This document shows positions 35,014-61,490 of a stretch of 64,000 nt of DNA, piece by piece. The stretch's first letter is position 1. Every line of letters starts with the position of its first letter. The position numbers were made by a program, and so were the translations under genes. Origin of the DNA: Paramacrobiotus metropolitanus (Eukaryota > Tardigrada > Eutardigrada > Parachela > Macrobiotidae); NCBI RefSeq assembly GCF_019649055.1, contig NW_026570324.1, positions 682,001 through 746,000 of the forward strand. The letters run 5' to 3'. Under the pieces are notes generated by a model that was not told the DNA's origin, ran no database searches, and worked only from the letters and a program-made list of their open reading frames with translations.

Positions 35014-38000
35014 TCAGAGCCCCTCGACGAATTTATTCAGCTGATCCTGCGGGGAGATATTCGTGGGGTGGTGGTGGTAGCCGCCCGGCATCCCGCCCAG
35101 ATGATGCCCGGGGTGTCCGGCGTGGGAAAACTCCAAATGTTGATTCCCGGGGCCCCCGCCCCCGGGGGGCATCCCGCCGCCCTGATTCCCGTGGAACCCG
35201 CCACCGCTGCCCCCGCCTTGTCCGTTCATCTGCTGGTACAGGAGGTCGCCGCCGGCCATCTCGTAGCCGCTCGGGTGGAGGTTGACGGCCAGGGGGCGGG
35301 GCGAGGGGGAGGCCGATAAGGGGCGGGGCGTGGATTGGGGCCGGCCGCCGGCCGTCTGCGGCGACGGGGCCTGGGGAGATCGCACGGGGGCGTTGGCCGC
35401 GGCGGCGGCGGCGGCCGCGGGAGATCGGATACTGACGCCGGCCATCGGTCCGCCGGGGGGCCCGCCCCGCTGTCCACCCCCTCCGCCGCCCCCGTACTCA
35501 CCGGGGCCGGGGGGATGGGAGAGCGGGGCTTGCTGCTGCAGCTGTTGTTGTTGTTGGAGGCCGCTGGGGAGGGCGTTGGCGTAGGAGGTGGCCGGCGGGC
35601 CCATGGACTGCATGCCGAAGGGCGGCTGCCCGCCCCCGCCGCCCGGGGGGCCGCCAGGGGCCGCGCCCGACGGGCCGAAGCGCTGCCGCATCATCGGGCC
35701 GCCCTGCGGCGCCACCATGCCGCCCACCGCGGAGGGATTGAAGTTCATGCCAGAATTCACTGCAACAAATAATCAACGCATGTATTACAAAATGACGGAC
35801 GTCCACTGTAAAAAACCACGCAAAAATCACACTGATTTAATGTTCTTTTTCAAAATAATACAGTAAATGCAATTGAAAACTTTGAAAAAATTTAAATTTT
35901 GAAAACCAAACAATTTCTAAAAAATGGCAAACAAACGGAAAGAAATGTAAAGAATTCAATATTAAAATTAAATCAGTTCACTGAAAGGCAACTAAGTTAG
36001 TCACAGCAGAGAACGAGCGGCAGATGACCTTTACTTTTTAAATGCAATTTCATAAACTGCCGACCTTTTTTTCTGATTATCAAACAAAAACCACCGAAAC
36101 CACCGAAATAGATTATCAAACCACCGAAACAGATAAATAGACAAATTTTAAATGAATTATTAGTATTACTAATGTACCAGTAATGATTAATCGTGATACA
36201 GTGATTATCAGAAATAAATCAACAATTTCATCACACGAGAGTAATTCCAGAATTAACTGCGAAATACTTACCGTTCTGGTTGGGATGATAGGTTTGTGCC
36301 ATGCGGGGCTGCGGCGGCTGCTGTTGCTGCTGCATCTGCCCGGGGAACTGTCCCTGGCCCGGCTGTCCCTGTCCATACATCTGCATCCGCTGCTGCATCC
36401 CGGGCGGTTGCTGTTGTTGTTGCTGCATATTGGGCATACTCTGGCTCTGCTGCGGCATCACCGGCCGGTAGCCGCCCTGCGCTTGCTGTTGCTGCTGCTG
36501 CATCTGCTGCTGCAGCAGCCCGGCCATGTTGGGCCGCACCTCGCCGCCGCGGTTCTCCGTGCGGGCCATCTTGAGGAAGCCGGTGATGAGCTCGGGGTTG
36601 CCCTGCATGAGACTGCGCACCCGCTGCTGCTGCTCCTGACTGGGCGGGCACTGCAGCGCCTCCACCAGCTGCTGGTACGCCGTCGTCGACTGCGCCCCGC
36701 CGCCGGCCATGCGCGGCCCCGGGGGCACGCCGCCGGGGGGCACGGCGCCCCCGGGGGCCTGTGGGGGCAGTTGGACGTTGGGCGGCGGACCGGGCATGCG
36801 CTGCTGGGTCCAGTTGGGGCTCATCTGCGGCAGACGCGTCGGTTTGCCGCCCATGGTGGGCTTCCCGCCCAACGCTTTTCCTTGCGACACCTAATAAGAG
36901 TTACACTTTATTTCATCTGCCTTCAGCGTGGTGGTACAGTGTCTGAATGTCCTGGGTTCCATTCCCAGATGGATGACTTCCATCTCAAGAAATCAGATCA
37001 AAAAGTAAAAAAATTCCAAATTTACCTAAAATATTTTCTAAAGAGATCTGCGTTTACGAAAACAGAATTTCAAACGCTTCTCATTCCCAAATTCAAATGA
37101 AATTATTTCAAATCCAACCGGGCTTCCCGTATCTGATACGGTTTGACATGAAGCATTCAATTTTCTGTTATCATTTAAAATAATTTTAGGAGGAGGAACT
37201 GATAAGAGTTTAATTAAATCCATTTACTTAAAATACACTCACATAAGTTAAACTGAAAACAACGGTCTATCAGCTAAGTTTTAATAATTCATAATTAATT
37301 TCTTTGGTAATAACGAAAACATATTCGACAAATAAGCTTTAAAAAACGCACTTTTAAAATTTCAAATTTTATTTCATATCGCTTTCGTTTCACATAACCC
37401 CAAAAATTCCAAATAATTCCGAATACTAATAAAGGAAAATAATAATAAATGTTATTATGGTATTATATACTAACCTGGAATTGAGCGTGGGCTTGTACAT
37501 TCTTCAGCGTCTCCTGCAGCGCATTACTCGCTCCCCCCATCGGCGGGCCCTGCCCACCCTTCCCCAGACTGACCGTCGGCTGCGGACTGGGCACACTGAC
37601 GACATTGGCCACGCCCTGCGTCGCCCCGATGGTCCCCGGCATGATGCGCTGCATGATGGCCGCGCGGCGCCGATTAAACTGCTGCCGCTGAATATCCTGC
37701 TGCTGGCGCTGCAGTTTCCATTTGGCGCGGATCTGCGGGCAGAAGGGCACGAGACACTTGCTCTCGTTGCACTGCTTGGCGTGGTAGCAGCACAGCGCGA
37801 TCAGCTGCTTGCAGATGGGGCATTGGCCGTTGGATTTGCGCTTGCAGGTCTTGGTGTGCGAGAGGACGCGCTTCATCTTCTGACAGCTGGACAGCCGGCA
37901 GTTGGCGTCGCGGCACTGGCTGGCGTGCATCAGGGATTGGATGCAGCGCTGGATGGAGAGCAGACGGGCTTCCTGCGGGTTGTTGGTCTGTTTGGCGTCT

Positions 38001-41000
38001 TTGGAGGAGGCGTCGTCGTCCAGCCCGAAGCCCAGACGGTCCATTTTGTGCGGGTGGCCGTCTTTCTCGTAACACTGCACGCACAGGTCGTAGTCCTACA
38101 TCAGAAAACACCAGGCTAGCCAAAGGTCAAGAGAACTGGTCTTCTTTATAAAACACAGAAAAATGGAATAAAAAATCTACCCGTGTTCGATTATCGGGCC
38201 ATAATTACAGAAACTAAAAGATACATTTTTTTAAAAAATTCTACAAAATTTCCGGTAAGCAAGTCCAACTACCAATCGATCCGTAGAACAAATTATCGAA
38301 GTATTCACCTGGATTTGTGGGTACGCGTTCGTGTGTACATATACTGAGCAATAAAAGTTACAAAGACTTCAACTGAAAATTTGAAATCAACGTACGCTAC
38401 AACGCTGTATCGTACGTTCATAAGTACAGTAAGAAACCAGGAAATAAAATTCTACAATATATTTTTATTACAATCCATGGGTAATCAAAAAATTAGGGAT
38501 TAAAATTAAAAAATAATTTACTGAAAATCCGTATCTGAAAAGCTGTAAATAACGACGACAGCAAAAAATACATTGAAATACAGGACGTACATCGCAGACG
38601 GAGCAGTGCCAGCGCGTCTCGACGTGGTTCTTGCAGGAGTTGCAGGTGTAGACGAAGCGGTCCTGGCCCTGGTTGTGCAGCTCGAAGAGCATGGCCATGG
38701 AAGAGAATTTGGCACGGCGCAGCGAGGAGAACTCGTAGTGTTTGTCGCGCGCGATGGTCAGGAAGGCGTCGCGGCCGTCCATCAGCTCACAGCTGATCAG
38801 CGGATCGGGATCCACCACCTGCGGCAGCTGGGCCAGCCGGTTCACCGGATGCAAACGAATCACAAAAAACACCTACAAACACCCGACCAAACACCGGCTA
38901 AGTCATATAATCTCCACGCCAAATAATAAGCAGCAAAACGTACGAAAAAATCTATCAGTTACCCTGCGATTAATCGCACAAATCATAACTGTAATCGCAT
39001 CTTGTAAATTAATAGCAACGTAGTACAAGGGCAATATAGTTCACGATTTAACCAATGGCTGAATAAATGCCACATGGTAGTCATGATAGTACATACTCAG
39101 CAATAAAACTGCTACAAATGACCATAAACGTTTTCACTTTTTTTAAGACAATCCCAGCTAAATTCATCTTTAACAATTACCGAAATTCACGTACGGGAAA
39201 CGCAAACATTACGTTACAAATATCGAAAATTTACAAATTAATCAGTTATTTACATTTACTTATTTCAGAAACCGAAAATCACTGGCGAGCAGTATTAATT
39301 TGGCAACTGATTAGGAACCCGATTAATTCTCGAAATGAGAAACAGATTAGGAATTTTCTGGTGGTTGAGTATTGGCCATAAAATACACTTACATCTTTGT
39401 GCTTATCCATGGTCTGGAAGATCTTCTGCGTCAGCGTACTGCTGTTGATCCCAATCCCCGCCAACACCTTCTTGGTGCTCTTGCGGGAATTCTGCTTACT
39501 ACTGCGCTGCTTCTTATGGCTCTGGCTCTTCTTCGTCCGCTTCTTCCCTTTCCCCGGCTCACTACTGGTATCATCGCTGTCCTCACTGTCCTCCACACTC
39601 TGCCGCTCCTCCTTCTCCTTCAGCTCCAACTGCTCCACCTCCTTGATGCACTCCTCCAGCACGTTGGGCCAGAAGTCGCCCTCGAAGTACGGCAGCTCCG
39701 TGGCGCTGCCCACGGCGTCCTCCACCGAATGCCGGTAGATGTCCTTGTACTCCAGGATGATCTTGTCGTTCATGCCCTTGTCCAGCATCTTCTTGTACCA
39801 TTCCTGCAGGCGTTTGGGCTTGGGGATCTTCTGCTCGGGCGGATGACAGTGGAACACGTAGTCGTCGCCTTCGCTGGGCGGGCACGCCCAGATGTGCGCC
39901 ATCGAGTACCTGTCAACACATACTCTTCGTCAAAATCCACATCATTTTATCCGTTAGCGGTTGAAACGTGGGGTGTGTTCGGCCCAGATTTAAGCGAACT
40001 GTGGCATTTTATGGGTCGAAAAATTCCTCAACTGACTGGAGAAGCGCGTTCTACTGTTTTCTCCAGCAGCATTTTGGTTTGGCTGCTATTAAAGGAAATG
40101 CTACAGCGGTGTTAATTCGGTTACCTTTTAACTCAAGGGAGGACGATAGAGATTTTGGTTGGTTAATCAATGTTTAAAATTTAACTATAAAGCAGTGTTT
40201 CGGTGTTTCCGCGTCTGCGCTTTATGTCGGTTTGTCAAATAGATTTCAAGATGCCTCCTATTTCGCTGCTTTCTTCCAGTATACACCCATGCGACATATC
40301 TACCAATAACCGGTCAAATTACAATCCTTAGTACTGGCACAAATAACGTAGAGCACTGGCATTACCAACCAATTACATCACTCGGAAAAGTTGCTAAACG
40401 AGATTCCCATAGTAATAAAATCTTAAATATAGAGAACTGATTTCTTATTAATTTTTATTTGTTGTATTAAGCAAACGATTTTACATAAAATCAGGGAACG
40501 GCAGATACTTTCTTCAGTTCTACATTTATCACAGGAAACTCCCAGTAATTATAATTCAGTGATCAGTAGTTCCTCGATTCAAAATACCTTTGGGTAAAAT
40601 GCAGTTTATTTTTAAAGAAATTATTTCTGTATTCCAAGCGGTTGCCAACGCTCCATTCGGTATTAAAATGATTTCAGTATGAAATGTGAATCATTCGAAA
40701 CCTTTCCCTCACGTTTCAAGAATTCAAGCCGAAACCCCCAAAGCTGTGATTACGAAAGACGGAAACCGAATTTTCTAAAATTCTTCCCGGTATACATGTA
40801 CAATCCATCAACAGCGCATTTAGCTGACGCACTCTTCACTATCAGTGTTACCGCGATTATCACACACGTTCCTTAATGATTAAAAAACATGTGTATTAAA
40901 ATGCGTTTTCTCGTGCGTTCCACCCGTCTTCTCACTGTCTGCTCCGTGGCTTACCCGAGATTTTTGCAGTAGTTAATGTAGCTGAGGAGGATCTCATGGT

Positions 41001-44000
41001 ACACCGCGGTGCGCACGTGTTTGGGCCGGAAGAAGTGCACCGAGTCCAGGTAGGCGATGTAGATGCGGCGGGCGTTGGGCGCGGGACAGTCGGAGCCGTA
41101 CTCCTGCACGTGCATGCCGAAGAAGCACACATCCGTCCCGTCGATCTCCTCGAAGGCGAAGATGGCCTTGGTCTTGTAGGGGAAGCTCTCGGCGAACTCG
41201 TTGGTGTCGGCGAACTTGTGCTTCATGCCGGGTTTCACCTCCACCACCTTGTCGCTGCTGGACAGCACCCGGATGGTCACTTCGCCGGCGTCCGTGATGT
41301 TCTTGGTCTGCAGATAGCTGTTGATGTGCGCTTCGATGTACTGGCCCAGTTTGGTCTGCGGCAGCTCTGCACAAACGACAAAAATGCTGATAAGTCATGC
41401 TCATGTCATACCATCCCTGTGCACCTAATACACACGTCTGTTGCAGCTACAGAGAATATTGCAAATGCGCCGAATTTAAGACTAACTAACAGGAATCGCC
41501 GCTTTGATAAAATATAAATATAGCTTAAAAATGCTTACTTTTGGCGGAGAAGCGATTGTCGCGCCTCTTCTTTCCCAGGGCTTTGAGACATCCTTCACAA
41601 GTATAACTACAACACCGAGCATGGAATAAAAAAATTAAACACACTGATTATGTGATTCCTTCTGCTTACCCTTCCGGCCAAATGGGATCGAGATGCAGCG
41701 CACAGATCTGGTGATTTTTCCGTCCGCACGCTTTACAGACAATATATCTGCAATGGCCAAACATTTTTATAATTATTTTCCGTGAGTTTGTCTATTTTTT
41801 ATCCTGCTGTTGATAACAAATTGGGACGGTTATTATTCATGAGATATCTGTCAATCAAATCTAACTGAAACACAAGTAAGGCGGTAAAAACTGAACGGTC
41901 GCACGCAAGCTGCTACGTGCGCATTACAATCGTAGAACATTGTAGTGGAATGGCTGAAGCACCCGGATCTGACAGCTCTTAAAATAATAAAAAATGAGAG
42001 AAATAACAACACGTTTTCATTAACCGCTCTGCAAGCGATAAATTACATACCACATTTTTTTTGATACATCACATCTTACTATATTTTGATACACTTTTTA
42101 ACACATTCTTGAAAGTTTCTGTGTGATACCGGACGGATAATTCTAAATTATTCCACGGATTAATTGTCACTTCTGATTGATCGACTTATTAAACTATCGT
42201 TAAAAATCTTAATGAAATATCCAGCTGCTATAGTAAGAAAGAAAAACGTACGGTTCATAGTCGACGGTGTCGTTCTTCTTCTCGGCGAAGCACTCCTTGC
42301 GGATGACGGTGTTGGGCTGGGAGGGGTCGTCGCCCAGCGTCACCGTCTCGCCGGGCATGTCGGCGAAGCAGCGCTGGCAGTAGGTGTAGCGGTCCTGGTA
42401 GCTCATGTAGCAGGTGTCGCGCGGAATGGTGCACAGCTGCTTCCCGTAGCAGCACAGCACCTGCGGCTGGAAGACGTACCGATGGCCGCAGCAGTAGCCC
42501 AGCGTCTGCATCACCGGGTCAATCTCCACTTCGAACACTTCCGCCAACTGCAACACAACATTCGTCATTTCCTGCTCATTGATAATACACTTGATTTCCC
42601 TAATAAAAACATTTCACTTCCGATACAACAAAATGTAAGAAAATCCGTGATATAAACAGCAGCTATTAACGTTAACTGTATTACTGAGTGAAGCACATTA
42701 ACACACGGCCAACGCTTATCGAGGAGGAGGCTGTCGTACTTCGTACTTCGCATCAAAATCACTAAACATCACCACAAAACGTAGAACATTGGCAGAACCG
42801 TCTGTCAGGGCTGCAAGGAGTTTAATGCCATATCTCAGAAAATGCAGTATAAGAAAATCGCTTATTTTTTACACTCGTTACTCTATTACTCGAAAAACTG
42901 ACAGTAACTACTTACAGGATAAAATGAAAAATCTCTTCAGAAGCACGTACCTTGCTGCAGTGCTTGTACACTCTGGTGCCCTTGCGATTGTAGATCCACG
43001 CGTTATTAAACATGAGATACATATCGTCGATAAACTGCCACGGGTCTTCATAGTCACCCGCCTCCAGCTTCTTCTGCATCGTCGACAGATCCATGGGGTT
43101 CTTGATAATGTCAAAATAATCCTGTAAAAAATACACAAAAATTAATCACAATTGAATACACAAAAAAAATCAAAAATACCAACTGACCGGAATATTCAGT
43201 TCTTGCGGATTAACCGGCACCCGGAAGGCCATGCCCTCCTCCATATTGTACAGCCGTGTGACAATGGGCGACAGCGCCGTCAGGAGCTCCTCCTTGGGAT
43301 GCACCTTCTTCCCGACCGGTCCGCGCGGTCCGGTGGGTTCGCGACTGGGGGACGCCGTCGACCCGATGGAGCTCAGGGACGCCGTGGACCCCTGACTGCT
43401 GCCCCCGCCGCCCTCGGCGTTCTCCTCCTGTTTCACCGTCTCATTCTCCGGGATGGACGAGTGCACACTGTTGGGCTGGACCGCCGGCGACCCGCCCTGC
43501 TGCTGCACCGCGGGAGCGGCATTCTCCCCGGCATCCTCTCCAGACAGCGGCTCCGTTTTGATGTGCTGCTCCGGAGGTTCCTGGGGCGGATACCCGCCGT
43601 CCTGGTACTCCGGTGGACCCATCTCGTGCTGCTCCATCATCCCGGGCTGGTACTCGTTCTCCAACTTCATCTCTTGGTAGGGCGGCTGCTGCATCCCGGG
43701 GAACTGGCCCATGGGCATGTTCTGGTAGCCGGGGCCCTGCATGCGCTGCCGCAGGAGCCCGGCGTCGCCCATCCCGCCCATCAGGGGACTCATCACCCCG
43801 CCGCCCATGCCGTCCGCCCCCGGGGGCCGCATCCGCAGCGGACCGCCGTTCCCGGGGAAGGGGACGCCGTTGTGGAGGGGCGGCTGGCCGGGGAGGACGC
43901 GGCGCAGTTCCTGGCGATTGCGGCGCTTCTCCTCTAGCTCCTTCTGGATTTTGTAGATCTTCTCGGCCAGCAGCTGGTAGTACTCTTCGCGGGTGTTGGC

Positions 44001-47000
44001 CTGCTCGTACATCTCGGCCTCCACTTTGCGCGCGTAGGAGATGAGGTTGGTCATGCGTTTGTCCTGCACGGCTGACTGGTCCTTGTACGGGAAGATGGCT
44101 TGTACACTGCAATAACAGCAAAGGCATTTAAAATTTTCTTTTAAAAATCGCTTTATTTGTGCGAGAAAAATCCAAGATAACTTAAAAACCGAGAAAAACA
44201 TTGGTACTTTTTTTCTTCTTCGGATGCTGAGTACTTACATCGTGTCTAAATGCATATATCTACAACAAATACACACTTGGCAGACACAGGACGTAAGTGT
44301 TTAATTTACGATGAATTAGTGTCAGTGATTGCATTCTGCTGGAGAAATATGCTATCAGTAAGAACAGCGGCATGATTACGTACAGTTTGTGGATGAGATG
44401 GTTGCGCAGGGAGTCGGTGCTGGAGCGGCCGTCGGCGCCGACCACCTGCAGATGCCACTCCTTGACGGCCACCTGCTGCGGCCCGAACTGCGGATTGTTG
44501 GCCAGCGGGGAGTTGGCGGAGGGCGGCGACATGAGACTGATCAACGTGTTGGCCGGCGACACCACCGACGTCCCGGGCAGGGAGCCCTGCGGCGGCGGCG
44601 GACTCATCACGCCGCCGTCCTGGTTGGAGTTGGACAGGTTCGACAAGGGCGTCGCCACCTGGGCGCCGCCGCCGTACATCTGGTTCCCGGGCATGGAGAG
44701 GCCTTGCCCCACGCCTAAGCCGTCCGCGTCGCCTGTAGAAATCCGAACATGAAATAACACAGTCAAAAAGTTGTCCCTTTACGCAATTGATTCTAATTCT
44801 TCTGATTTGTTCGAAATTCGTACTATTGGAGCTTTTAAGCAAGCTTTGAACCGTGTCAGTTTTGCTTAAGGAATCTTTTCTGTCTATCTGCACTCGTGCT
44901 TTTCGATTTTACTATTTGGCCAGGTTTTAAAATCCCAGCTAGAATGTCACCCTAGCCGGAAATGGGCTACCTGCTCCACGATGAATAATAATAATAATAA
45001 TAAATAATAATAAAAAAGGCACGGTATTTCGCATCAAATTATACGTATTCTTTATCGCTATTTCGGAATTCTTTCATCATATTCGTTGCCCCATGAAAGC
45101 TTCCTAGCCCGTTAACATGTTCCTGCGCCAACTATCAAGAAATTCGTACCGTTTGCTCAACTATGTTGCGAGAAGCGGAATCAGCTTACTTCGTAATCGT
45201 TCACTTAACACCCGCAACAATGCACGTTCGATTCACGAAGTATTGTACATCGAAATTTTCTAAGCGTCGTGGAGACAGATCGATCGTCAGTCTGCCGGCA
45301 AACGGCTTACTGACAACTTTCTTGTTAATGGTTCCTTGTTCATCATCCTTAATTTTCTCATTCGAGATAGAGAAGAGAAAGTCACTTTTTTCGTGTAGTG
45401 AAAATCAAAAGGGAAACTTTCAGGAGGATATTCACATTTACGCTGATCGAACGTGCGTTAGAAACTGCATCACCCGCCGGAAGTCTGTGCATTTCCTTCA
45501 TGTGAAATTGTCAGTTTCGAGATTTTCGTGAAACATTAATCATGATAGAGAGAAAAGTGATTTCCACGAGGATACAAGTTACTCCGAAGGAGATCGCATG
45601 TGCGCGTTAGGTGCTATATGTCTTGAAGCGACTCTATCCGCCCATCACGCTAGTGTTAATACAACTGTCGCGTTTATTCAGAAAGAAATTATTACCGAAT
45701 ACACTAACACGTACCCATCATTCTGGCTTGTTGTGCGCCGGTCTGCGGCACCACCTGCGGATTGACCATCATGTTGCGGGCGCCGGGACCGCCGGGAAGC
45801 GGTTTCCCGCCTCCGGCCGCGCCCATCTGCAGGGCATTGGACACCGGGGCGGCCACGTTGCCTTGATTCGGCACTTGAAAATCTACGAGATAAAACAACC
45901 GCATCGTCAAATACCATTCACACCGTCGTCCTTATTTCGCTTATGAATATACCGAAGCTGCCAGCAGGTTTGTTGCGATCAGAGGCCTGTTTCAGAGGCA
46001 GACACACCGGGCAGTCGCCGCGGGTGCAGGTCTTCCAGTGCTGGATAATCTGTCTGGATGAGGCACAATGCGGAACTAAAAAAGAACACGTTAATATCAA
46101 AAATAACAAAAAATACTTATTAATAAAGTTTTATAATTTTTCCTGTTTAATTTTAAAAAAATTGTATACGGAATACTCACTAGGACACTGTTTGCCGGCG
46201 ACACACTGCGTCATGTGCGTGAGGACGTTCTTCATGGTGCGACAGTGCGGCAGCTTGCACTCCTGCTTGGGTTGTTGCGCGGGTTCCCCGCCCGTCTGCA
46301 TCTCCCGCCGCTGGCACTTGTGCGCGTGCAGCAGCAGCACCAACTGCTGCTGGATGATCTTGCGCTTCTCGGGATGATCGACACTGGGCGGACTCAGCTG
46401 GTTAGCCACCGCCACGTTGGGACCTCCTCCGGGACCTTGAGGGGTACCCACCCCGGGTCCCTGCGGCGGCGGTGGCTGCAAGTTCACCGCGTTCTGCACA
46501 TTGACGTTCATGGGCGACATGGGGTTCATGTTTATCTGGGAGACGGGTGGCTGGAAGTTCTGTATCATGGGACGACCGTTGGGCGGCATCTGACCGCCGC
46601 CCATCATCCCCGGACCCGGGTTCATCTGCAAAATTAGGAAAAACAGTGAATTTTTGTTGCAAAAATGCCAATTAAACACCTCCTACCTTGACCATGCCGG
46701 GTCGCGGGCCCATCGTGGCGGGCCGGAGTCCCTGCGGCGGCATGCCCGGACGCTGCGGCATCCCCGGCCGCATCTGGTTGACGGACTGCGGGCCGTTCTG
46801 CTGCACCGGATACGGCATATTCGGCTGCGGCATGGGACCGTTCATGTACTGCGGTTGAGCCTGCTGCGGCGGCGGGCCTCCAGGACCGCCCGGGAATCCC
46901 TGGAAGCCGTTGGTGGTCAGGCCCAGATTGCCGCCGTGCATCCCGCCCCCGGGGGTGTTGGTGCGCTGGGTGGGAAGGTGCGGGGACTGGCGCATTGGTT

Positions 47001-48677
47001 GTTGTTGCTGCGGCGGCGGCGCTTGTTGGTGGTTGATGGGGCTCTGGCGCGCCGCGGGATCATTGGGCGCCATCCCGGTGGGCATGGGCTGGGAATGCGG
47101 GGTCTTGGCCAGGAGCTGGCTGAGCTGCTGGTGCGGGTGCTGGCGCTGCGGTGAGGGGGCCGGCTGCAGCGGGCCATCGCTGGACTGGTTGCTGGGGGGG
47201 TGGGGGTCGTAGGGGGGCGCGTCCAGGAGGCCGTTGAGCGTCAGCGTCTCGGGGGGTTTGGGGGGTAGGCCCTCCGCCGGCTGGGAGGTGGGCCGGGCGT
47301 TGGAGGAGCCGGAGCTGTTCAGCTCCTGGTGGAGGAGACCCTCCAGAGCCATCAGGCTCTGGAACTGGTTGTTGTACACGTCGGATTCTGCAATGCCAGA
47401 CACACTCTGTCAACGAAACAGCTCCACAACCACGAATCACTTCATTATTCACAAGTTGTTTTTAAGTTTTATCATCCAATGCCTTTCACGAGCAAATCAT
47501 TTACCACTGAACCATCGTGTAAACTGGTCCTGCATAGCAAAAACAGAAGAATACTGATAGTCCCATCAAGATTATTGGCAAAATAAATGATAACGAACTG
47601 CTGTCTACTGCAACCAGAAACCTCACAAGCTAAACATGCAAGCTACGATCTCCTACATCAGCAAAATTTTTATCCCCATCATTGTACCATTCCCAATATT
47701 TATGAACGCTTTCCCAACAAACAAACGCTAAGAAAGTTACATAAACAACTGTACGGAGACCTAAAAGGATCAAAAAATTGCTAATATGTTCAGAAAACTT
47801 CATAAGTTCTTCAAATAACACGAAAACATCTGAGTAACTCAAATATCTCGCATCTTTTGCTCACAAATGTATCAACGGCAAATTAATCAAATTTTCAAGC
47901 ATGATTACCTGGATTTAAAAGATGCAAGAGCATAGAATATGAAGAATTCAGAGAGTCCTTGCGTTTAATAGTATCAAAGCACAGCCAACTTCTCTCACTT
48001 CCTCTTCGAACAACCAAATGAGCCAACGATCTCTTGCGCGCTCAACTGACAACACTGGCATCCACTTTCACAGATTTTGCAATGCTGCATACGAAATATT
48101 AAGAAAAAATAATCACACATACAAAACTTAGAAAAACAAATTTGCGTAAGCAGATATAGCAATATAAACACTGCCAATAATTCAAAATGCAACATTCACT
48201 TTCAGGCACAATCTCTGCTGTCTGATAACTGTTGGTAATCGTGAGCATTTCCTGCGCAGTTTTTTTCTCAGAGATCGCAGCAACATCTGGATAAAATTAT
48301 TTCAATTTTTCATTTAATTTATGTCTGCATTTGAGGGAAATTCTGACTAATAAACGTATTATTTAATTACACGTTTCAAAATTTTACACTATATTTACAA
48401 TTTTACAGTGAATGAATGTGTGAACACCCGACGACCTCCTTTTTTTCAATCTTTTCTTTTCCCTGCCTCGTGCGAACTCCGACAAAATCGCTAATTTTAC
48501 GCAGATTTTTTAACGGTTTTTTCCTGATAATTTTTAACGTAATACAACACCAAAAAATAGCGAAAAAAGCGAGAAAACACTGCAAAAAAAACGCCGTGTA
48601 AGCAAACCTGAAGAATCCTGTGCATTGATACGCGCTTTTTTGGCCACGGGACCATCACCGACATTATGATCGTTCAT
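35014..48677 (-). CDS. CBP: CBP/p300 histone acetyltransferase and coactivator
   Basis: Seventeen exons join in phase to 2194 codons plus stop: 48608-48677, 46687-47387, 46181-46625, 45953-46075, 45715-45882, 44384-44732, 43188-44106, 42951-43121, 42252-42547, 41670-41747, 41539-41606, 40955-41366, 39393-39909, 38591-38872, 37475-38095, 36272-36890 and 35014-35759. Order: TAZ1, KIX, bromodomain, RING/PHD, HAT, ZZ, TAZ2, NCBD, close to the 2442 residues of human CBP. It acetylates histones and many factors and bridges DNA-bound activators to the transcription machinery. The N-terminus [16 protein letters not shown] matches the family start with its KRAK-like signal. HAT residues equivalent to p300 D1399, R1410, W1436 and Y1467 are kept ([32 protein letters not shown]). 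Linkers are Gln/Pro/Gly-rich. The intron before the KIX exon contains a LINE fragment. Confidence 0.96.
36550..36680 (-). other. CBP NCBD (IBiD) motif
   Basis: [20 protein letters not shown] then [16 protein letters not shown], the helical segment that binds nuclear-receptor coactivators, p53 and IRF3 in the family, followed by Gln-rich tracts. Confidence 0.85.
36921..36975 (+). repeat. tRNA-like repeat in CBP intron
   Basis: GCGTGGTGGTACAGTG (A-box-like), then CCTGGGTTCCATTCCCAG, resembling a tRNA T-arm. Too short for a functional tRNA. Confidence 0.35.
37700..37970 (-). other. CBP TAZ2 zinc-finger domain
   Basis: [53 protein letters not shown] and CLVPFC in one exon, followed by the basic [17 protein letters not shown]. 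This is the parental segment of the paralog's TAZ2. Confidence 0.93.
38030..38650 (-). other. CBP ZZ zinc finger
   Basis: [23 protein letters not shown], then after an intron [20 protein letters not shown]. The Cys/His ligands of a ZZ finger are in place. Confidence 0.9.
39580..41366 (-). other. CBP acetyltransferase (HAT) domain
   Basis: Starts [20 protein letters not shown]; includes [31 protein letters not shown], then in the next exon [20 protein letters not shown] and [20 protein letters not shown]. Catalytic-site residues known from p300 are unchanged. A 1045-base intron separates the two HAT exons. Confidence 0.93.
41560..42440 (-). other. CBP RING/PHD module
   Basis: [31 protein letters not shown], then [20 protein letters not shown] and [15 protein letters not shown] over three small exons. 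It regulates the adjacent acetyltransferase domain in the family. Confidence 0.88.
41926..41985 (+). repeat. tRNA-like repeat in CBP intron
   Basis: CGTAGAACATTGTAGTGGAA, TGGCTGAAGCACCCGGATC, similar in layout to the SINE-like copies in FoxO introns. A shorter relative (CGTAGAACATTGGCAG) is at about 42780. Confidence 0.3.
42500..43300 (-). other. CBP bromodomain
   Basis: [58 protein letters not shown] and [12 protein letters not shown] over three exons. The acetyl-lysine-binding Asn of the BC loop is in YNRK. Confidence 0.92.
43930..44470 (-). other. CBP KIX domain
   Basis: [29 protein letters not shown], then after a phase-2 intron [20 protein letters not shown] and [20 protein letters not shown]. 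The three-helix bundle binds phospho-CREB, Myb and similar activators. The same intron position is kept in the paralog at 51297-53202. Confidence 0.93.
44784..45016 (+). mobile_element. 5'-truncated LINE fragment in CBP intron
   Basis: The last coding residues, 3' UTR and TAA tail of the same family as the element at 1094-4107, inserted antisense to CBP. Shared blocks include AAGCAAGCTTTGAACCGTGT, TCTTTTCTGTCTATCTGCAC and CTAGCCGGAAATGGGCTACC. The microsatellite tail is at 44983-45016. It lies about 50 bases upstream of the KIX-exon acceptor. Confidence 0.88.
45965..46380 (-). other. CBP TAZ1 zinc-finger domain
   Basis: [20 protein letters not shown] through [19 protein letters not shown] and [15 protein letters not shown] to CPVCLPL, residues about 345-440, across one intron. 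All His/Cys ligand positions are visible. It binds activation domains such as that of HIF. Confidence 0.92.
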
Positions 48678-51296: not shown

Positions 51297-53202
51297 TTAT
51301 CGAGGCTGCACAGCGTCCTGCGCCGGCTGTCCTTCCCTCCCGTCGCCGGGGTCCTCCATCCGGGCCTTCTTCCCCCCGCTAAACATCAGTACAGGAATGT
51401 CCTGCAAAAAATCGCGGAGGCGGACCAGCAGCTCCATACTGGCCGGGGAATAAACGGAAGGCAGGACGCCGCCGCCCATTCCGCCCGCCCCCGCGAGACG
51501 CAGCCGGGCCTCCTCCCGCCGCTTCCGGCGTTTCTCCTCCAGCTCCTGCTGGATTTTGTAGATCTTTGCGGCCAGCAGCTGGTAGTATTCTTCGAGGGTG
51601 TTAGCCTCTTCGTACATTTCCGCCTCCAGTTTGCGGGTGTAGCCGATGAGGTTGGCCATGCGCCGGTCGGTCAAGGCCGACGGGTCTTTGTGCGGGAAGA
51701 TGGCTTGTACACTAATAATCACAAAAAAATTGAGAAAAATCTATACAAATAAAAGAAAACAAAAAACGTTGGTACTTTTCTGTTCTTCGGATGCTGCGTA
51801 TGTACTTAGTACTTGCATGATTACAAAGATATTATATGGGTACTTAACATATTTTGTTATGTAGTATAATTACATATTAACCACAAAAGACACAAATTTA
51901 AGGGTCACAGAGGCATATGAAAATGAAATAGCCGAATTCTATAAGTAAATACTAAATACAGTACAGTACTTGGTTTCTGCTCATGTGAACCCTAATGGCC
52001 AAGATTTTATCCACTTGTGGTTCTGCCTTTAATAACGTCGCACTTAATACGTACAGTTTTTCGATCATATGCCTCCGTAATGAATCAGCACGGGCCCGCC
52101 CGTCGGGGCCGAACACCTGCACATGCCACTCTTTGACGGCCACCGGCTGCGGCACGAACTGCGGATGATTGTCCAGCGGAGAGGTAGTCGATAGCGACGA
52201 TATGAGGCTGCTGAGGATGTCGGCCGGCGACGCCACCGATGTCCCGGGGAGGGAGCCCTGAACGCCGCCATCCTTCGCCGGCAGGGTGCTGGTACTGGAC
52301 GGAGCCTTTAACTCCAACGCCGTCACGGACTGACCGTCCATCCGCGGTCCCGAGGGCGCCGGCATACCTTCCAACGGCGGCGGAAGAGATTGGACGAGCA
52401 AACTGTTGCGCTGCTGTTCCGGCTGCGGAATGGGCACCCTGACGACATACGCCACGCCCTGCGTCGCGTCGATGGTCCCCGGCATGATACGCTGCATGAT
52501 GGCCGCGCGGCGCCGATTAAACTGCTGCCGCTGGATCTCCTGCTGCTGGCGTTGCAGTTCCCACTTGGCGCGGATCACTTGGCAGAAGGGCACGAGACAT
52601 TGAGGCTCGTGGCACTGCTTAGCGTGATAGCAGCACACCGCGATCAGCGGCCAGCAGAGCGAACATTGCAATTCGGGTTTATGTGGGCAGGTCTTGGTGT
52701 GGCAGAGGAGGATCTTCATCTTGTCACAGCCGGGCTGGCTGCAAACGGTCTCCCGGCAGTATCCAACGTGCAGCAACGCCTGCAGGCAGTGGTCAACGGT
52801 GGCCCAATCCACTGTCGGTGCATCCGGCGACGTCGTCGGCTGCGGGTTCTTCATGGTGCGCTTGTTCCCTTTGCCGGGCTCGGTGTCGTCGGCATCCTCC
52901 AAGTCAAGCTGCTGCATCCCCTCAATAAAGGCGTCCAGCGCGCTATTCCACAGGTCGCCACCGCAGGGCGGCAGTTCCGTCGCACCGCCCTGCATCCGGT
53001 CGTCCTGTTCGACCGGAAGCGATACGTTCGGCGCTGGTATACGGCCGTCTATGGAAGTGTCACCCGGGGGCGGCGGAGCGTCGTGCACACTAGCGGGAGA
53101 GCGGGCGGCGGTCAGGCCGGAATTCTCATCTGGAAGCGTGCTGGGAACACCCGGCTCCGCATTCTGGCTGGCGATCGGTGAATGTGGGAAGGAAAAACTC
53201 AT
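51297..53202 (-). CDS. Mini-CBP: permuted TAZ2-KIX paralog without HAT
   Basis: Two exons, 52055-53202 and 51297-51711, join in phase 2 to 520 codons plus stop. Residues 73-120 copy the end of the CBP HAT exon (ATEL..., [12 protein letters not shown]). Residues 136-215 are TAZ2 with every zinc ligand kept: H145-C149-C154-C159, H168-C172-C180-C183, H193-C197-C202-C207. Residues about 315-445 are the CBP linker and KIX ([53 protein letters not shown]). CBP has KIX before TAZ2; here the order is reversed. TAZ1, bromodomain, catalytic HAT, ZZ and NCBD are absent. The KIX intron has the same position and phase, and recognisably the same sequence, as in CBP, so this is a DNA duplication and not a retrocopy. 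A new basic tail ([10 protein letters not shown]) ends it. Probably binds activators without acetylating; expression unproven. Confidence 0.85.
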
Positions 53203-54809
53203 ATCCTGATGGGTGGAATACGCCTCACAACTCTCCAGCTAAGATGGAATGGGTACTGGGATCCTACCCAAGAATTAATACTAAGAATTAATATTAGAAA
53301 TAAAGTAATATAAAAAATGAACAGTGTAAATAGTAATAGTTATAAGTAGTAATGTGATTTAACAAATTTAACATCAAGTTTAATGGCTCGGTGCCCAGTG
53401 GTACGTTCCGCGCAGCCCCCTATGGGGCACGGCGACCGAAGAGGATGCTTCGGAAAACTGAAACATTAAATGATTAGTTTCTGAGCTAAGCGACTGAGAA
53501 GCATGCCACCGTGAGATCGGAAAAATGGCGCTCTTAATGCGAATGCGATGTGTGCTTATAACACATAAATGACAAGCCAATCTCATTCATATTTTATGCT
53601 CAAAGAGTCAAAAGCGAAAAGTGTCATAACAGCTCACAAAAATATTATAGAGATGATGTACGAAGTACGAGATATGTTCGGACTATCACAGTCTCCAGTT
53701 CTACTCTCACCGTTAACAAACTGCAGAAATCCGAAAGCGAAACTTATAAAAGCAGCGAAAATCCAAGAACCCTAATGGTAAAACCCAAATGTCTTACTAC
53801 ATAGCTCTTACACTCTTAGTAACAACTACTGTACAGTAAGCCTGCATTAAATGGATGAAATAATACGATTCACGAATATCACTTACCGTTTACTCACGAT
53901 CAGCCTTAACAACTAATTTACTTCAGTCATGTAACAGGCAAGCGCGAGGAGATCACGAGTGTGCTTTATTGACAAATAAAGGGAACAATGCTGCGTAATA
54001 GCAGGGAAAGCAAAACAAAGCACTGATGGCTAACAAGCAAGTGAATGCTAGAAGAGCTCTTGAGCGTTCGTCAAGGCGTGAAAGAAGCAACTGGCGGCAA
54101 GCACGTGCTGTGTGCCATCAGCTGTGTGATGATGCGCAGACTGGACTCAATCCAACGCGAGCGTACGCTGAGTCATACAGCGAGAGAGGGACGAGAGAGC
54201 AAGTATGCTCAGTGTGTGCGCCGCATATATCCGCTTCAGCGGGTATGAGTGCAGTGCAGCAGCACACGTACGTACAGCGAGAGAGGCGGTATGGCAAGCA
54301 TGAGTGCAGTACGTCCATGGTGGGCCGTATGCACCAGGCGCAGTCATGTGCCTCTGACATGCCTCTGGGCGGGAATCCGAGCTCCTGCGAAGGATGCTCC
54401 GACTCGGTACCGCACCAGTACCGCACAACTCTCCAGTCGGACCCAATGTGGGGTCGCTGGTACGCGTCCTCTGGCAGTGGGAGTCCGGTGTCTGGTCGAC
54501 CGTCCCTTCTTCACTTCCGAACCCATGAGTGGAAGCCACTCACGGCCGAAAAATCCGGAAGCCGCTCGGGCGTTTCGTTGGACCGGTGTTGCTTCTGTTG
54601 GCTGGCTTCTTGCTTCTGTTGGCAACGGAGAACAATGTGAAAGAAAAGTGTAATGAAAGTTGTATACAGCGCGAAAGAAAGTATGAAATAAAGTTTAATC
54701 ACAATTCCAGTGAGCAAAAGGGGTTACAAAACAGATCTGTCAAAGAGATCGAACTAGAAAAATACAATTCCGTTTGTTAGGAAAAATGCTAATAATGAAA
54801 AAAATTGCA
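53203..54809. other. Spacer upstream of the mini-CBP gene
   Basis: 53203-54000 is AT-rich with no gene seen; it should contain the mini-CBP promoter. 54030-54650 is GC-rich with short internal duplications (ACAGCGAGAGAGG at about 54177 and 54276; ATGAGTGCAGT at about 54245 and 54300). Open frames on both strands there have no recognisable domain. A hairpin TTGC-TTCTGTTG-GCAA is at 54610-54625. Confidence 0.4.
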
Positions 54810-57222: not shown

Positions 57223-57562
57223 ATCTGCTCTGTTAGCAGATGTGGTTACGATCTGTTTTTGCCAAGCTGGGGAACTGGGTCGATTGCCCAGTTCGTTCCA
57301 GGGGATTCTTTGGGGGACGTACCGGTACGGTGAAAGAGCCGAAATACCCGGGTCTAACCACGCGTTTCCGGGTCCGACCAAAGAATCCGGCCGACTTGTG
57401 CAGTCGGCTTTTCTGGCAAAATCGTCGTTGACGTCCGCCGCGTACATGGTTGGTCATTTTCCAAAAAAAAGAACTAAAGAGAAGTGTCCATTCCGAAGTC
57501 GGTTCTCGACGGCGCTGTTTCTCAGCTAGACTGTTTCTCAGTCGGAAGGTCGGTCCTCGACC
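57223..57562. repeat. Further hairpins near the ORF end
   Basis: 57223-57241 (ATCTGCT-CTGTT-AGCAGAT), 57391-57407 (CCGACT-TGTGC-AGTCGG), 57498-57510 (GTCG-GTTCT-CGAC) and 57548-57562 (GGTCG-GTCCT-CGACC). All have five-base loops, like the 56.8-kb cluster. Confidence 0.55.
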
Positions 57563-59819
57563 GTGCCGTTTCTCGGCAATGCCTCCTTAAAGTTATTCCA
57601 ATGGGGATCGAGTTCCAGTGTGGGAACTCGATCTTAACTGAGTGGAACTTCGACGGGTTTATCGCCGCCGAAGTAATCTTCTTCTTCATCATCGTCCGGG
57701 CCAGGTCGGTTATGTGGCCGTATGTTCGGGTCCCTAGGTTTACAAGTCGCCGGGCCGCTCCGTTGAGACATCTCGTCGGTCTCATCTGTTTCTGGCCTGG
57801 GCGCTCCGCTCTGCTCTTCCTCGATTCCTTGGCCGCTTGTTTGCGGAGCCGCAGCGCGAACGGTCGTGCGCCGGGTGCTATGTCATCCGACATCCAAGGT
57901 TCGTAGGGCGACGAGTTGAATCCGCTAGGCAAAGTTTTCTTTTCGCGGTACCAGCTGATGAATCGGGTTGCATCGTCGCTGGGATCTACGTGATCCTCAC
58001 GAAAGGCATACTTTGTCGCATACCGTTCGTGGGTGTACAGCAAGTCACGCATCCAGACAGCTAGGATAACACTTCTCATTGGTGTGCCGAGTTGGGCTAC
58101 GAGGGTTTCCACAGCTGCTGGTATCGCTTCATTGTGGTACAGTCCGTACAGGGTGTAATGGCAAAAGTAATTGCCGAGTCGAGCTGCGAAGATGAATCGC
58201 AGGAATGCCGTGGCTCCGTCCTGGGCCATGTCGACTTCTCCTTCCGGAAGGTACTGGGTTAAATCCAGTGCTGCCCGAGCCGCGGTGATTACAAAGGCTG
58301 GGTGTGCGTCCGTGATGACGAACTGGGCAACACTCTCCAACTCGTCATGGGAGTATTCCCGAGCTCCTAGTTGGCTCGCACGTGTTCCGTCCGGGCTGTA
58401 CAATGGTACATTCAGCAAGACCGGGTCGGTCATCGACGGCAACGCATTCGATCTAGTGTACGGGTGTTCAACATTCGGCGCTGTGTGCGCGTTCATGTTG
58501 AAGTCGGACCGCCACTGATGTTGTTCGAACAGCGCCTGGTATCCGGATCGGACGAGGAATTGACGAAGGTTTTCTACCATCCGCCAGATTTGTGGTCGGT
58601 ACCGTTCCTCGTAATTCATGACGTTCATAATGTGGTTCGTCCTTTCGGTAGGGTGTGGCATGACGACCTCGATTCCTTGTTGTCGAGCTCGGTCATAGCG
58701 AGGGTCTTCTCGGATCGGCACTTCCACTGGTGGCAGTTGTGCCATCTGGTCGGCTACGTCGACGTCCATCTGCTCCTGTTGAGCTGCCAGTTCAGCTTGG
58801 ACTTCGGCCGGTGGTTCCGCTTGTTGGGCTTCCGGCCGTTGTTCAGGTGGGATGACGTTACGTTTCGACTTATTTGTTAAGTCGACCGTAAGTCCGATCC
58901 CCGTTTCTCCAGATCCAGTACGTTTCCCTGGTGGAGCTCTGGTTGGCTCCTTTCCTGCTTCATGGATAACGGCTCGTTGCGCTTCGATTCTGTCTCGAAG
59001 GTCAACTGGGCCGATCCGGTGTCTAAGATCATGTCCCGCGAGGTTTTTGCTCGGTCGGCGCTGCTGTTGAGCGCGATTTGTGATTCCGGATTGAGGGATC
59101 TGCTGAGAAACAGTTGGACGGGCCTGTGTGACCACTGGCATTGCCCTGTGTGGGATTGCCATCAACTGTTCCTGAGTTGCCGGTGTGAAGGTGACTGGCT
59201 GTTGAGTTCCGTCCGGCATATTCATCATCATCGTTATAGATGCGCCGGCCATCGGTCGGTTCGAATCTCCGACGAAGACATCGCGTATTGTAGGAGTTAA
59301 TTCTCCGACTGTCGGGAGACCCTGTGTGGGTGTCTGTACCCGAATCTTTATTTCCGGTTCGAAATCGGTCGGTGGTGGATGGACTCGCATTGTGGCGATC
59401 TTCCTATCGACCTCCTTTATCTTCTTCTGGTCGTCAAGTTGACGTTGCAGGTCCAACATCTGACGGTACTCGAACAGCCTATTTGTTAGGACTGGTGGTC
59501 GAGTTTCTTCCCATCTCGGGTCGCGAGCTCGTTGTCGCTGAATTGTAGCCAGGTTGTCCTGTTCATATGACTCCAGTTGATTAATCAAGTATTCTCTGCC
59601 GGCCAGGTACCGGTATGCGCTCAAGTTGCCAGCGACAACGTTTATGTAAAGTGCCGCCGCCTGAGCACGGTGTTGCGCTCCGGTGCCGGAAATTCGTTCG
59701 TTCGTAAAGGATACGATGCACAGCGCGCAGGGCATTCTGTTGTTGTCCCTCGTCGCATTATCCATGCACTGTTGGCAGTCCACCGTAAAGGCTTCCGTTC
59801 GGGGCTCTTCCGTACGAGT
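57522..59819 (-). CDS. Unknown protein, 766-codon exon with CxxC pairs
   Basis: The open frame begins exactly at a strong acceptor (TTTTGTTTTAACAG, ending 59820), so it looks like a 3' exon; the first ATG is at 59766. The N-terminus has two CxxC pairs 14 residues apart (DCQQC, CALC), a possible zinc site. Next come a coiled stretch (MLDLQRQLDDQKKIKEVDRK), a low-complexity Gln/Pro middle and a well-formed globular part (residues about 430-640, with YSHDELESVAQFVITDAHPA, FLRFIFAARLGNYFCHYTLY and VILAVWMRDLLYTHERYA). The C-terminus is basic. I do not recognise a family. CxxC plus globular domain would suit a Gag-like or nucleic-acid-binding protein, but this is a guess. Confidence 0.55.
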   Translation of the reverse strand, partial: TRTEEPRTEAFTVDCQQCMDNATRDNNRMPCALCIVSFTNERISGTGAQHRAQAAALYINVVAGNLSAYRYLAGREYLINQLESYEQDNLATIQRQRARDPRWEETRPPVLTNRLFEYRQMLDLQRQLDDQKKIKEVDRKIATMRVHPPPTDFEPEIKIRVQTPTQGLPTVGELTPTIRDVFVGDSNRPMAGASITMMMNMPDGTQQPVTFTPATQEQLMAIPHRAMPVVTQARPTVSQQIPQSGITNRAQQQRRPSKNLAGHDLRHRIGPVDLRDRIEAQRAVIHEAGKEPTRAPPGKRTGSGETGIGLTVDLTNKSKRNVIPPEQRPEAQQAEPPAEVQAELAAQQEQMDVDVADQMAQLPPVEVPIREDPRYDRARQQGIEVVMPHPTERTNHIMNVMNYEERYRPQIWRMVENLRQFLVRSGYQALFEQHQWRSDFNMNAHTAPNVEHPYTRSNALPSMTDPVLLNVPLYSPDGTRASQLGAREYSHDELESVAQFVITDAHPAFVITAARAALDLTQYLPEGEVDMAQDGATAFLRFIFAARLGNYFCHYTLYGLYHNEAIPAAVETLVAQLGTPMRSVILAVWMRDLLYTHERYATKYAFREDHVDPSDDATRFISWYREKKTLPSGFNSSPYEPWMSDDIAPGARPFALRLRKQAAKESRKSRAERPGQKQMRPTRCLNGAARRLVNLGTRTYGHITDLARTMMKKKITSAAINPSKFHSVKIEFPHWNSIPIGITLRRHCRETARSRTDLPTEKQSS

Positions 59820-60024
59820 CTGTTAAAACAAAAGTCAGCAAACCGTTTCTCGGTTGCATCCTATAATTTACGTCCTATGATTACTACGGTCGGGCCAGGT
59901 CGGTTCTCGAACTGGTCCAGGACGCCTTTGTGGTCGTCCAATGAGGTAAATCGACTTCTGTTGGTCGATGACGCCGTACTGGGAGGAGGTCGGTTATGCC
60001 TCTCCCAACGCGTTCTGCGTTTCC
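59820..60024 (-). other. Possible intron with two hairpins
   Basis: Lies between the acceptor at 59820 and the preceding reading frame. It contains a perfect hairpin at 59951-59968 (TCGAC-TTCTGTTG-GTCGA) and a bulged one at about 59920-59939 around loop TTTGT. No convincing donor was found. Confidence 0.35.
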
Positions 60025-60339
60025 TCATTCCCGTGTAGGTGCTTCTGGCGACCCAAGCCGACTTGCTTGGTGCGAGTCGGCCAACTCGGTCGATTGTGCC
60101 GAGGTCGGTCGTTCCTTCGGTAAATGTCCATGTCGGTGATTTGATGGGTTTAAGGCGATAAACCGTTGACCGCCTTGGGTTTTATCGGTGTTAGTGGCGA
60201 ATCGTTGTTGGTAGAGTGCCTTCGATATGACGAATTCTAGTTCGTCGTCCAGGGAGTACTTTTCCGTCCGGCAATCGTGTCCGGTTTGGCCTTGTATTTG
60301 GGATCGACCAGCTGTGGTTCCGTTGATGTCCACTGGAAC
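60025..60339 (-). CDS. Continuation of the 60-61 kb ORF in the -1 frame
   Basis: Reads KYSLDDELEFVISKALYQQR, FATNTDKTQGGQRFIALNP, then a weaker tail and stop. It overlaps the preceding frame by 103 bases (60237-60339). The first half looks coding, so the protein before it probably continues here after a frame change near 60285. No intron consensus fits inside the overlap. Confidence 0.4.
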   Translation of the reverse strand, partial: VPVDINGTTAGRSQIQGQTGHDCRTEKYSLDDELEFVISKALYQQRFATNTDKTQGGQRFIALNPSNHRHGHLPKERPTSAQSTELADSHQASRLGSPEAPTRE

Positions 60340-61490
60340 TCAAACCGCGCTATAAGTTGGTGGAGTATTTCTCCGCGGGTAAGTCCGTCAGGGTGCCAGG
60401 ACATTTCCATGCACGCTTCAATAGCGTGTATCCATCCTTCATATGTTGAAGGAGCCGGGTCTTTCTTAGCCGGTGGGAACTCGTAATACATCCGCTTTCC
60501 GCTGGTGTATGTACGTATCAGCTTCCCAGCATGGTATCCGAGGTCGCAGTAATGTCGTACGTTGTTCTGACTAAGTTGTCGCCAATCGCCCGTTTCATCT
60601 ACCTTCCAGTGTTGGAGGAGTTTGAAGGCGATTCTTGGTGTGGCGAACTTTGGTCCACGTGTGGCCAAGGCCTTCAGAGCGGCGAATGTGTACATCCATC
60701 CGGCGTCATATTCCGAGACACTCGGCTTGGGTTTCGAAGCCGATTTAATGCCGGTATACTTCAACCTAACGTTGACCAGTGGGGGAATATCGTCTGGTAG
60801 GACTTCTATCATATCCTCATGAAAGTCCGAACGAAGTGGCTGGTGGTCGGAGTCGGGCGTCAGTGGTACTCGTTTACCGTACTGACGAGGAACGTATACT
60901 CCGCCATCGTCTTCGTTACTCTTGGAGTCGTCGGCCTTGTCGCCGCTATCCTTCTCTTCAGGTTGTTTAGCCGGTATCTCCGGTTCGGCCTGATGTTGAG
61001 GTGCTGAGCTCGACGGTGGTGGAGGTTTACCGTTTCCATCGTCGTCCTCGTCGTCGTCCTTCGGCGATCCATTTCCGGGTGTTCGGAAATCTTCGTCGTC
61101 GTCGTCATCGTCTTCGGTTTCTTCCTCGGATGACGAGATCAGCTCGGATGACTTCGGTTCCTTTTTCTTAGCCGGCTTAGTCGACTTCGTTTTAGTCGAC
61201 TTCGACTTTCCCTTCTGTTGGGTCGAGTCTTCTGGTTCCGGCGAAATTTCCATAGGCGAGGACGGTGGAAGTGACTGTACGTCCTTCGGTATAAACCGTC
61301 CCTTCGCACTCCTAGTTGGTTTGGCTATGCTTGCTCGTCCCGCCGGAGCGATGCCGTGCCGACATATGTTGTCGGTTCGTGCGGTGCTCGAGGTCGGGTT
61401 AAGGCTTGTACTCGTTTTTGTGACGACTGTGCGGCCGTACGAGCTATATGCAGCAAAATGGCTGCATCTTCCGACGGTTGTTCGTTGGAT
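60237..61490 (-). CDS. Unknown protein with acidic N-terminus
   Basis: First ATG at 61253 (MEISPEPEDSTQQKGKSKST), but the frame is open from 61490 and readable before it (RFIPKDVQSLPPSSP). Basic then strongly acidic tracts (SSSEEETEDDDDDDED, KDDDEDDDGNGKPPPP) are followed by a folded part: YDAGWMYTFAALKALATRGP, KLLQHWKVDETGDWRQLSQN, NVRHYCDLGYHAGKLIRTY. The latter could be a winged-helix-like fold, which I cannot verify. It overlaps the preceding ORF by 166 bases in the -1 frame. Confidence 0.5.
   Translation of the reverse strand: MQRTTVGRCSHFAAYSSYGRTVVTKTSTSLNPTSSTARTDNICRHGIAPAGRASIAKPTRSAKGRFIPKDVQSLPPSSPMEISPEPEDSTQQKGKSKSTKTKSTKPAKKKEPKSSELISSSEEETEDDDDDDEDFRTPGNGSPKDDDEDDDGNGKPPPPSSSAPQHQAEPEIPAKQPEEKDSGDKADDSKSNEDDGGVYVPRQYGKRVPLTPDSDHQPLRSDFHEDMIEVLPDDIPPLVNVRLKYTGIKSASKPKPSVSEYDAGWMYTFAALKALATRGPKFATPRIAFKLLQHWKVDETGDWRQLSQNNVRHYCDLGYHAGKLIRTYTSGKRMYYEFPPAKKDPAPSTYEGWIHAIEACMEMSWHPDGLTRGEILHQLIARFEFQWTSTEPQLVDPKYKAKPDTIAGRKSTPWTTN

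Follow-up and report, generated by a model that had tools for sequence, protein, structure and literature searches.

The nearest known kind to the gene described here is the pair of short CBP paralogs cbp-2 and cbp-3 of C. elegans, which have no HAT and are likely partial duplications (excerpts of PMC10320766). According to the same excerpts, the three C. elegans cbp genes lie within 160 kb, and cbp-2 and cbp-3 were once called pseudogenes yet give RNA interference effects; what remains is the first zinc finger plus KIX in CBP-2 and the first zinc finger in CBP-3. Excerpts of PMC10743222 differ on the last point and leave CBP-3 only KIX. A role of cbp-3 in mitochondrial stress signalling is described in parts of PMC10743222 and PMC4946786. 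Here we analyse mini1, a gene of the tardigrade Paramacrobiotus metropolitanus (genome searched: 169.8 Mb, 533 contigs) that lies in a stretch of 64,000 nucleotides, C104:682001-746000, called the window below. Our reading, to which we give a rough probability of 0.45, is that mini1 is a HAT-less CBP offshoot belonging to a small family, with a predicted role as a KIX-centred competitor or modulator of CBP.

Like cbp-2 and cbp-3, mini1 comes from partial duplication of the resident CBP gene and lies near it, with other copies on other contigs. Unlike them, it keeps TAZ2 and not the first zinc finger (TAZ1), that is, a C-terminal set with KIX inside. The CBP gene of this genome is the source of its TAZ2, KIX, HAT-loop and NCBD sequences. 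It differs from CBP/p300 (KAT3) in lacking any match to HAT, bromodomain, TAZ1 or ZZ and in placing KIX after TAZ2, ahead of an NCBD remnant. According to the competition model, CBP is limited by the contest of partners for its domains. CITED-type competitors are small proteins that affect access to the interaction domains of CBP by binding them, whereas mini1 itself carries CBP-derived domains. Among the listed titles and abstract beginnings of open-licence papers, none described a TAZ2-KIX protein or a KIX inside NCBD. A word search of the main text of the P. metropolitanus transcriptome paper (PMC11191345) gave 0 occurrences of CREB, CBP and acetyltransferase. If our reading is true, a natural family of proteins built from CBP's own domains but without its HAT would let the competition model be tested within one genome. 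It would also be a case of one interaction domain apparently inserted into another while the surface of a neighbouring domain changed.

Gene structure and domain content of mini1

mini1 is an intact gene of two exons on the minus strand (53202-51297), upstream of the complete CBP gene, which has the same orientation. Splicing of 53202-52055 to 51711-51297 gives 520 codons and a stop, and the translation is identical to the annotated P. metropolitanus protein P0001; its relatives mini2 and mini3 are the annotated proteins P0002 and P0003. The domain order is HAT-loop remnant, TAZ2, KIX (Table 1). In the parental CBP, KIX stands before TAZ2, an order that mini1 does not show. A candidate first CBP exon is located near 48.7 kb. 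A search restricted to one HAT exon (40957-41364) gave one match genome-wide.

The HAT-loop remnant scores 114, a value reached by 0 of 5000 shuffles (best shuffle 51), and its DNA at 52845-52881 is 81% identical to CBP 39524-39560 over 37 bases (E=0.003). Pfam zf-TAZ matches P0001 in a single stretch (E=9e-06), which is TAZ2. The 12-ligand spacing pattern, built from what we take to be the TAZ2 ligand positions, occurs in P0001, P0002, P0003, CBP and the KIX-less copy 4. The TAZ2 DNA is 84% identical to CBP over 314 bases. A TAZ1 identity of this zinc domain was ruled out, the solved relatives being TAZ2 chains of p300/CBP. KIX is found by Pfam at residues 374-442 (E=1.9e-28). No HAT (including HAT_KAT11), bromodomain, ZZ or NCBD match appears in the Pfam scan of P0001 (maximum E 10; HMMER drops most matches above 0.1). 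A continuous NCBD is absent, with no PF09030 match; only the tail from helices 2-3 is seen, and the front part is weak. A structure model of mini1 built from 7 sequences has a mean predicted local distance difference test (pLDDT) score of 51.9, and from this low-confidence model only the helix pattern and the fold matches are used. The TAZ2 and KIX helices are visible in it, and a fold search matches solved KIX and TAZ2 structures.

The anatomy agrees with an earlier note on this DNA, which had described two exons, 520 codons and a HAT-end fragment followed by TAZ2 and KIX, with all 12 zinc ligands and the KIX core kept and with the parental order reversed. Its list of missing domains is right for bromodomain, HAT, ZZ and TAZ1; NCBD is not simply missing, for its helices 2-3 follow KIX. 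Its view of mini1 as a CBP paralog without HAT and with its domains in a new order is supported, and by its anatomy the protein could occupy CBP partners.

The C-terminal tail of TAZ2 has a synonymous divergence (dS) to CBP of 0.15, against 0.38-0.59 for the TAZ2 core, KIX and pre-KIX linker of mini1. Windows with so few mismatches occur in 17-21 of 5000 permutations, and four-fold sites give P=0.063; gene conversion of 52420-52560 from CBP is thus suggested only. The N-terminus is common to the mini proteins (40/73 identical between mini1 and mini2). It has no Pfam match, and no motif search was made there. Comparison with the CBP core (25, 200 and 5 of 200 shuffles for P0001, P0002 and P0003) points to no clear source; this 200-shuffle screen holds 27 comparisons, and isolated low counts in it may be chance. 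A DNA match of the N-terminus to the CBP locus (67.5 against a best shuffle of 63.5, 0/30) is not trusted.

Searched against the genome, the candidate promoter block upstream of mini1 matches only itself, which shows that it is no near-identical repeat; the search missed the mini2 and mini3 flanks and is hence insensitive. Further upstream, window 53930-54500 is a high-copy repeat with 40 scored matches among 537 genome candidates, up to 100% identical.

Origin of the TAZ2-KIX arrangement

The simplest account is that KIX, together with its CBP intron, entered the NCBD of a copy that had HAT loop, TAZ2 and NCBD and otherwise no introns. Neither the ZZ exon nor the CBP introns that separate HAT loop, TAZ2 and NCBD occur in mini1, while the KIX intron is kept, and the intron DNA at 51762-51800 is 87.5% identical to the CBP intron at 44194-44233 over 40 bases. 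After KIX, the mini1 DNA matches NCBD helices 2-3 with a score of 103.5 (0/300 shuffles, best 71). At the protein level this tail is equalled by 22 of 5000 shuffles for P0001, 0/5000 for P0002 and 12/5000 for the stop-bearing copy on contig C76; in the 200-shuffle screen the mini1 tail gives 59 against the CBP core and 52 against the NCBD exon. The matches begin at residue 82 (mini1), 83 (mini2) and 79 (C76 copy) of the CBP NCBD exon. Going by solved NCBD chains and presumed helix limits, these starts fall in the stretch between helix 1 and helix 2 of NCBD. Before KIX, the P0002 linker matches NCBD helix 1 up to residue 83 (15 and 18 of 5000 shuffles); in the screen it scores 66 against the CBP core after KIX (1/200) and 62 against the NCBD exon (0/200). 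The NCBD of CBP exon 36231-36890 appears to correspond to the region that received KIX in the ancestral copy. Where the front edge of this insertion lies is less certain.

We propose that a partial CBP copy with HAT loop, TAZ2 and NCBD arose, probably processed from RNA because the CBP introns between these parts and the ZZ exon itself are absent. A genomic piece of CBP with KIX, which brought its intron, would then have entered its NCBD close to the turn that joins helix 1 to helix 2. Circular permutation by tandem duplication was set aside: mini1, mini2 and the C76 copy all carry NCBD sequence behind KIX, and the KIX-less copy 4 reads from TAZ2 into NCBD. For mini3 the rejection is less firm. 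A processed copy of the whole CBP gene is ruled out by the kept KIX intron with its CBP-like sequence.

Copies elsewhere in the genome

Genome searches and fetched DNA place at least five further members outside the window (Table 1). The HAT loop is absent from mini3. Copy 4 has the family N-terminus, HAT loop and TAZ2, followed by NCBD without helix 1 (2/5000 shuffles). Copy 5 has the HAT loop and an uninterrupted NCBD (0/5000; PF09030 E=4.6e-7), whose DNA (L016, C180:7853-7984) is 94.7% identical to the CBP NCBD, above other C180 and C76 pieces. These two KIX-less copies likely represent the state before insertion. The TAZ2 tree sets the three TAZ2-KIX copies apart from copy 4, CBP and human p300 (support 100/100).

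Among the matches listed from at most 8000 candidates, protein searches for relatives found only the three P. metropolitanus proteins; no other tardigrade genome was searched. A KIX-only protein search listed 6 of 97 candidates, with P0002 and P0003 not among them, so that absence in other species has weak support. A comparison of the ends of C104 and C180, the last 9964 bases against the first 18000, gave no match.

Other CBP pieces were also seen. About 0.9 kb downstream of mini2, C180:164997-165277 (L017) is a CBP fragment (window 45551-45791, 73-78%), a further partial copy that adjoins a 93.8% copy of the high-copy repeat at window 53930-54500. At a contig end, C358:38117-38574 (L019) is 96.5% identical to window 44209-44667, which covers KIX exon 1 and part of the intron; it has no match to KIX exon 2. 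It may be a recent partial copy or an assembly fragment.

Selection on the copies

Over 379 codons of five chosen regions, mini1 and mini2 differ with dS 0.45 and nonsynonymous divergence (dN) 0.22. Their ratio omega is 0.49 (0.36-0.66), a value of 1 being reached in 0 of 2000 bootstraps. For the remaining five pairs among copies 1-4, omega lies at 0.51-0.61, and between 0 and 36 of 2000 bootstraps get to 1. By domain, the mini1-mini2 omega is 0.47 (0.24-0.90) in KIX and 0.51 (0.26-0.93) in TAZ2; a ratio near 1 in both domains, which would refute the proposal of the earlier note, is not seen. Copies 1 and 2 are under purifying selection. In neutral simulations from the present mini1, the frame stays free of stops in 1/400 runs at 0.1 changes per site and in 0/400 at each of 0.2, 0.3, 0.45 and 0.6; at 0.2 the mean is 9.4 stops. 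From the omega values and these simulations, mini1 is kept as coding sequence, under a constraint looser than that of the copy 4 TAZ2 against CBP (omega 0.23). Against CBP, mini1 gives 0.25 (0.13-0.48) in KIX and 0.58 (0.32-1.06) in the TAZ2 core.

Binding surfaces of TAZ2 and KIX

The two domains have changed to different degrees. The net charge of TAZ2 over 82 residues is +14 in human p300 and tardigrade CBP, and +2, +1 and +8 in mini1, mini2 and mini3. Copy 4 keeps the basic charge (+12 against +13 in CBP over 79 residues). At 18 of the 61 TAZ2 positions common to human p300 and tardigrade CBP, all three TAZ2-KIX copies are altered, compared with 1 of 57 common positions in KIX. The mini1 KIX equals tardigrade CBP in 11/14 groove residues on the pKID side and 10/11 on the MLL side; residues are numbered as in mouse CBP, and the groove lists and residue roles are presumed. 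The mini3 KIX lost K662 and K667, among others.

The TAZ2 of the mini proteins keeps its zinc fold but not its basic surface, and probably has another ligand or a scaffold role. The proposal that TAZ2 serves as a CBP-like bait is not upheld, given the charge drop and the altered positions; nor is a FoxO or CREB decoy acting through TAZ2. Nothing here points to FoxO or CREB targets. The near-CBP KIX of mini1 would bind KIX-type activation domains, and without an acetyltransferase the protein would compete with catalytic CBP, or modulate it, at some of the KIX partners. A wider extension is tentative and rather unlikely: a single catalytic CBP would have shed free-standing adaptor genes (NCBD alone; TAZ2 with part of NCBD; several with TAZ2 and KIX nested in NCBD), forming a built-in modular competitor system in which the KIX gain went alongside a retuning of TAZ2 to a new ligand.

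Alternative explanations

Several observations weigh against the reading of mini1 as a KIX-centred offshoot with KIX inserted into NCBD. The pre-KIX linker of mini1 resembles NCBD weakly (protein 263/5000 shuffles; DNA 2/300 against the NCBD exon and 2/30 against the whole CBP locus), that of P0002 is ambiguous, matching also the CBP stretch after KIX (16/5000), and neither KIX flank of mini3 is recognisable as NCBD (2016 and 457 of 5000). Copies 4 and 5 could have lost KIX secondarily, and copy 4 lacks NCBD helix 1 as well. With a KIX tree that lacks resolution, and with the KIX of each of the three TAZ2-KIX copies more similar to CBP (66-78%) than to that of its fellow copies (55-64%), a single KIX gain is left undemonstrated. 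Known contacts may be weakened by E655A and K662Q in the mini1 KIX and by the loss of Y650 and I660 in mini2. The mini1-mini3 KIX omega is only moderate at 0.68 (0.39-1.32). The KIX of the stop-bearing copy has an omega to CBP of 0.29, within the 0.24-0.38 of the intact copies, so omega to CBP largely reflects CBP itself and weighs little.

mini1 might also help CBP instead of competing with it, binding activators and recruiting other machinery or CBP itself. Genetic data for C. elegans cbp-3, in the parts of those reports noted above, suggest a helping role, and the shared N-terminus could recruit something, while its Pfam blank speaks on the other side; we regard such a positive adaptor as possible, at low odds. 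A family without important function, relaxed or dying and open by chance or by recent conversion from CBP, is distinctly unlikely. It would suit the C76 relative, with its TAG stop and no TAZ2 match, and the copy-copy omega of about 0.5-0.6, weaker than that of copy 4; the bootstraps, the neutral runs and three intact copies argue against it.

That TAZ2 and KIX together act as a full decoy, competing with CBP for FoxO or CREB-like activators, is improbable: both domains are recognisable, the ligands are kept and both folds are found, but the lost TAZ2 charge, the changed positions and the two mini1 KIX substitutions speak against it. Somewhat less probable again is a damper acting in trans, in which HAT-loop remnant and TAZ2 would restrain the acetyltransferase of CBP. 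Excerpts of PMC10475075 describe an autoinhibitory role of the p300 TAZ2 on HAT, shared with the autoregulatory loop, and mini1 has both pieces. Against it, 'in trans' occurs 0 times in the main text of that paper, mini3 has no loop and the basic TAZ2 surface is altered. An assembly chimera of CBP exons, the objection foreseen in the earlier note, is very improbable. Nothing direct favours it, apart from the 96.5% copy at the C358 end; the pieces of mini1 are 78-87.5% identical to CBP in DNA, and two more annotated TAZ2-KIX proteins of the same architecture lie on another contig, C180.

Table 1. Features of mini1, the parental CBP gene and family copies (window positions unless a contig is named)
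Feature	Position	Strand	Basis or remark
mini1 exon 1, residues 1-382 and two bases	52055..53202	-	open frame; matches P0001 after splicing
mini1 intron inside KIX	51712..52054	-	splice contexts; position and phase as CBP intron 44107-44383
mini1 exon 2 with stop codon	51297..51711	-	splicing; P0001 identity
HAT loop remnant of CBP, residues 72-119	52846..52989	-	shuffles; short DNA match
TAZ2 core, 12 zinc ligands	52561..52800	-	Pfam, PDB relatives, ligand-spacing pattern
TAZ2 C-terminal tail, unusually CBP-like	52420..52560	-	absent from P0002 and P0003
Linker, possibly with degenerate first part of NCBD	52300..52419	-	weak in mini1
KIX, first part, residues 354-382	52055..52143	-	DNA 78% to CBP 44377-44589
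KIX, second part, up to residue 448	51516..51711	-	DNA 83% to CBP 43909-44115
Tail from NCBD helices 2-3	51342..51446	-	DNA and protein shuffles
Candidate promoter piece, upstream block	53687..53775	-	also in 5' flanks of mini2 (83%) and mini3 (75%)
Parental CBP, 14 exons: TAZ1, KIX, bromodomain, HAT, ZZ, TAZ2	37475..47387	-	open, no stop
CBP exon with intact NCBD	36231..36890	-	PF09030 E=3.6e-7; PDB NCBD chains
CBP segment, source of KIX cassette	43780..44640	-	alignments; limits approximate, set by eye
mini2, TAZ2-KIX with KIX intron	C180:160537-161600 and 163734-164136		genome search
mini3, TAZ2-KIX with KIX intron	C180:1692-1040 and 749-302		genome search
Copy 4, no KIX	C180:5462-4551		frame of 303 residues (297 from ATG)
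Copy 5, no KIX	C180:8357-7824		frame of 177 residues (166 from ATG)
Stop-bearing copy	C76:7525-9081		TAG in HAT-loop part, no TAZ2 match, KIX with intron

Other features of the window

Window 57522-63732 contains several long open frames on the minus strand (766, 417, 685 and 165 residues), the three longest of which have no Pfam match at E 0.01. At 2004-4103 lies a frame for a reverse transcriptase (RVT_1 E=2e-26), which also gives weak matches to endonuclease. At 16953-18795 a Forkhead domain is spread over two minus-strand frames, perhaps a FoxO gene.
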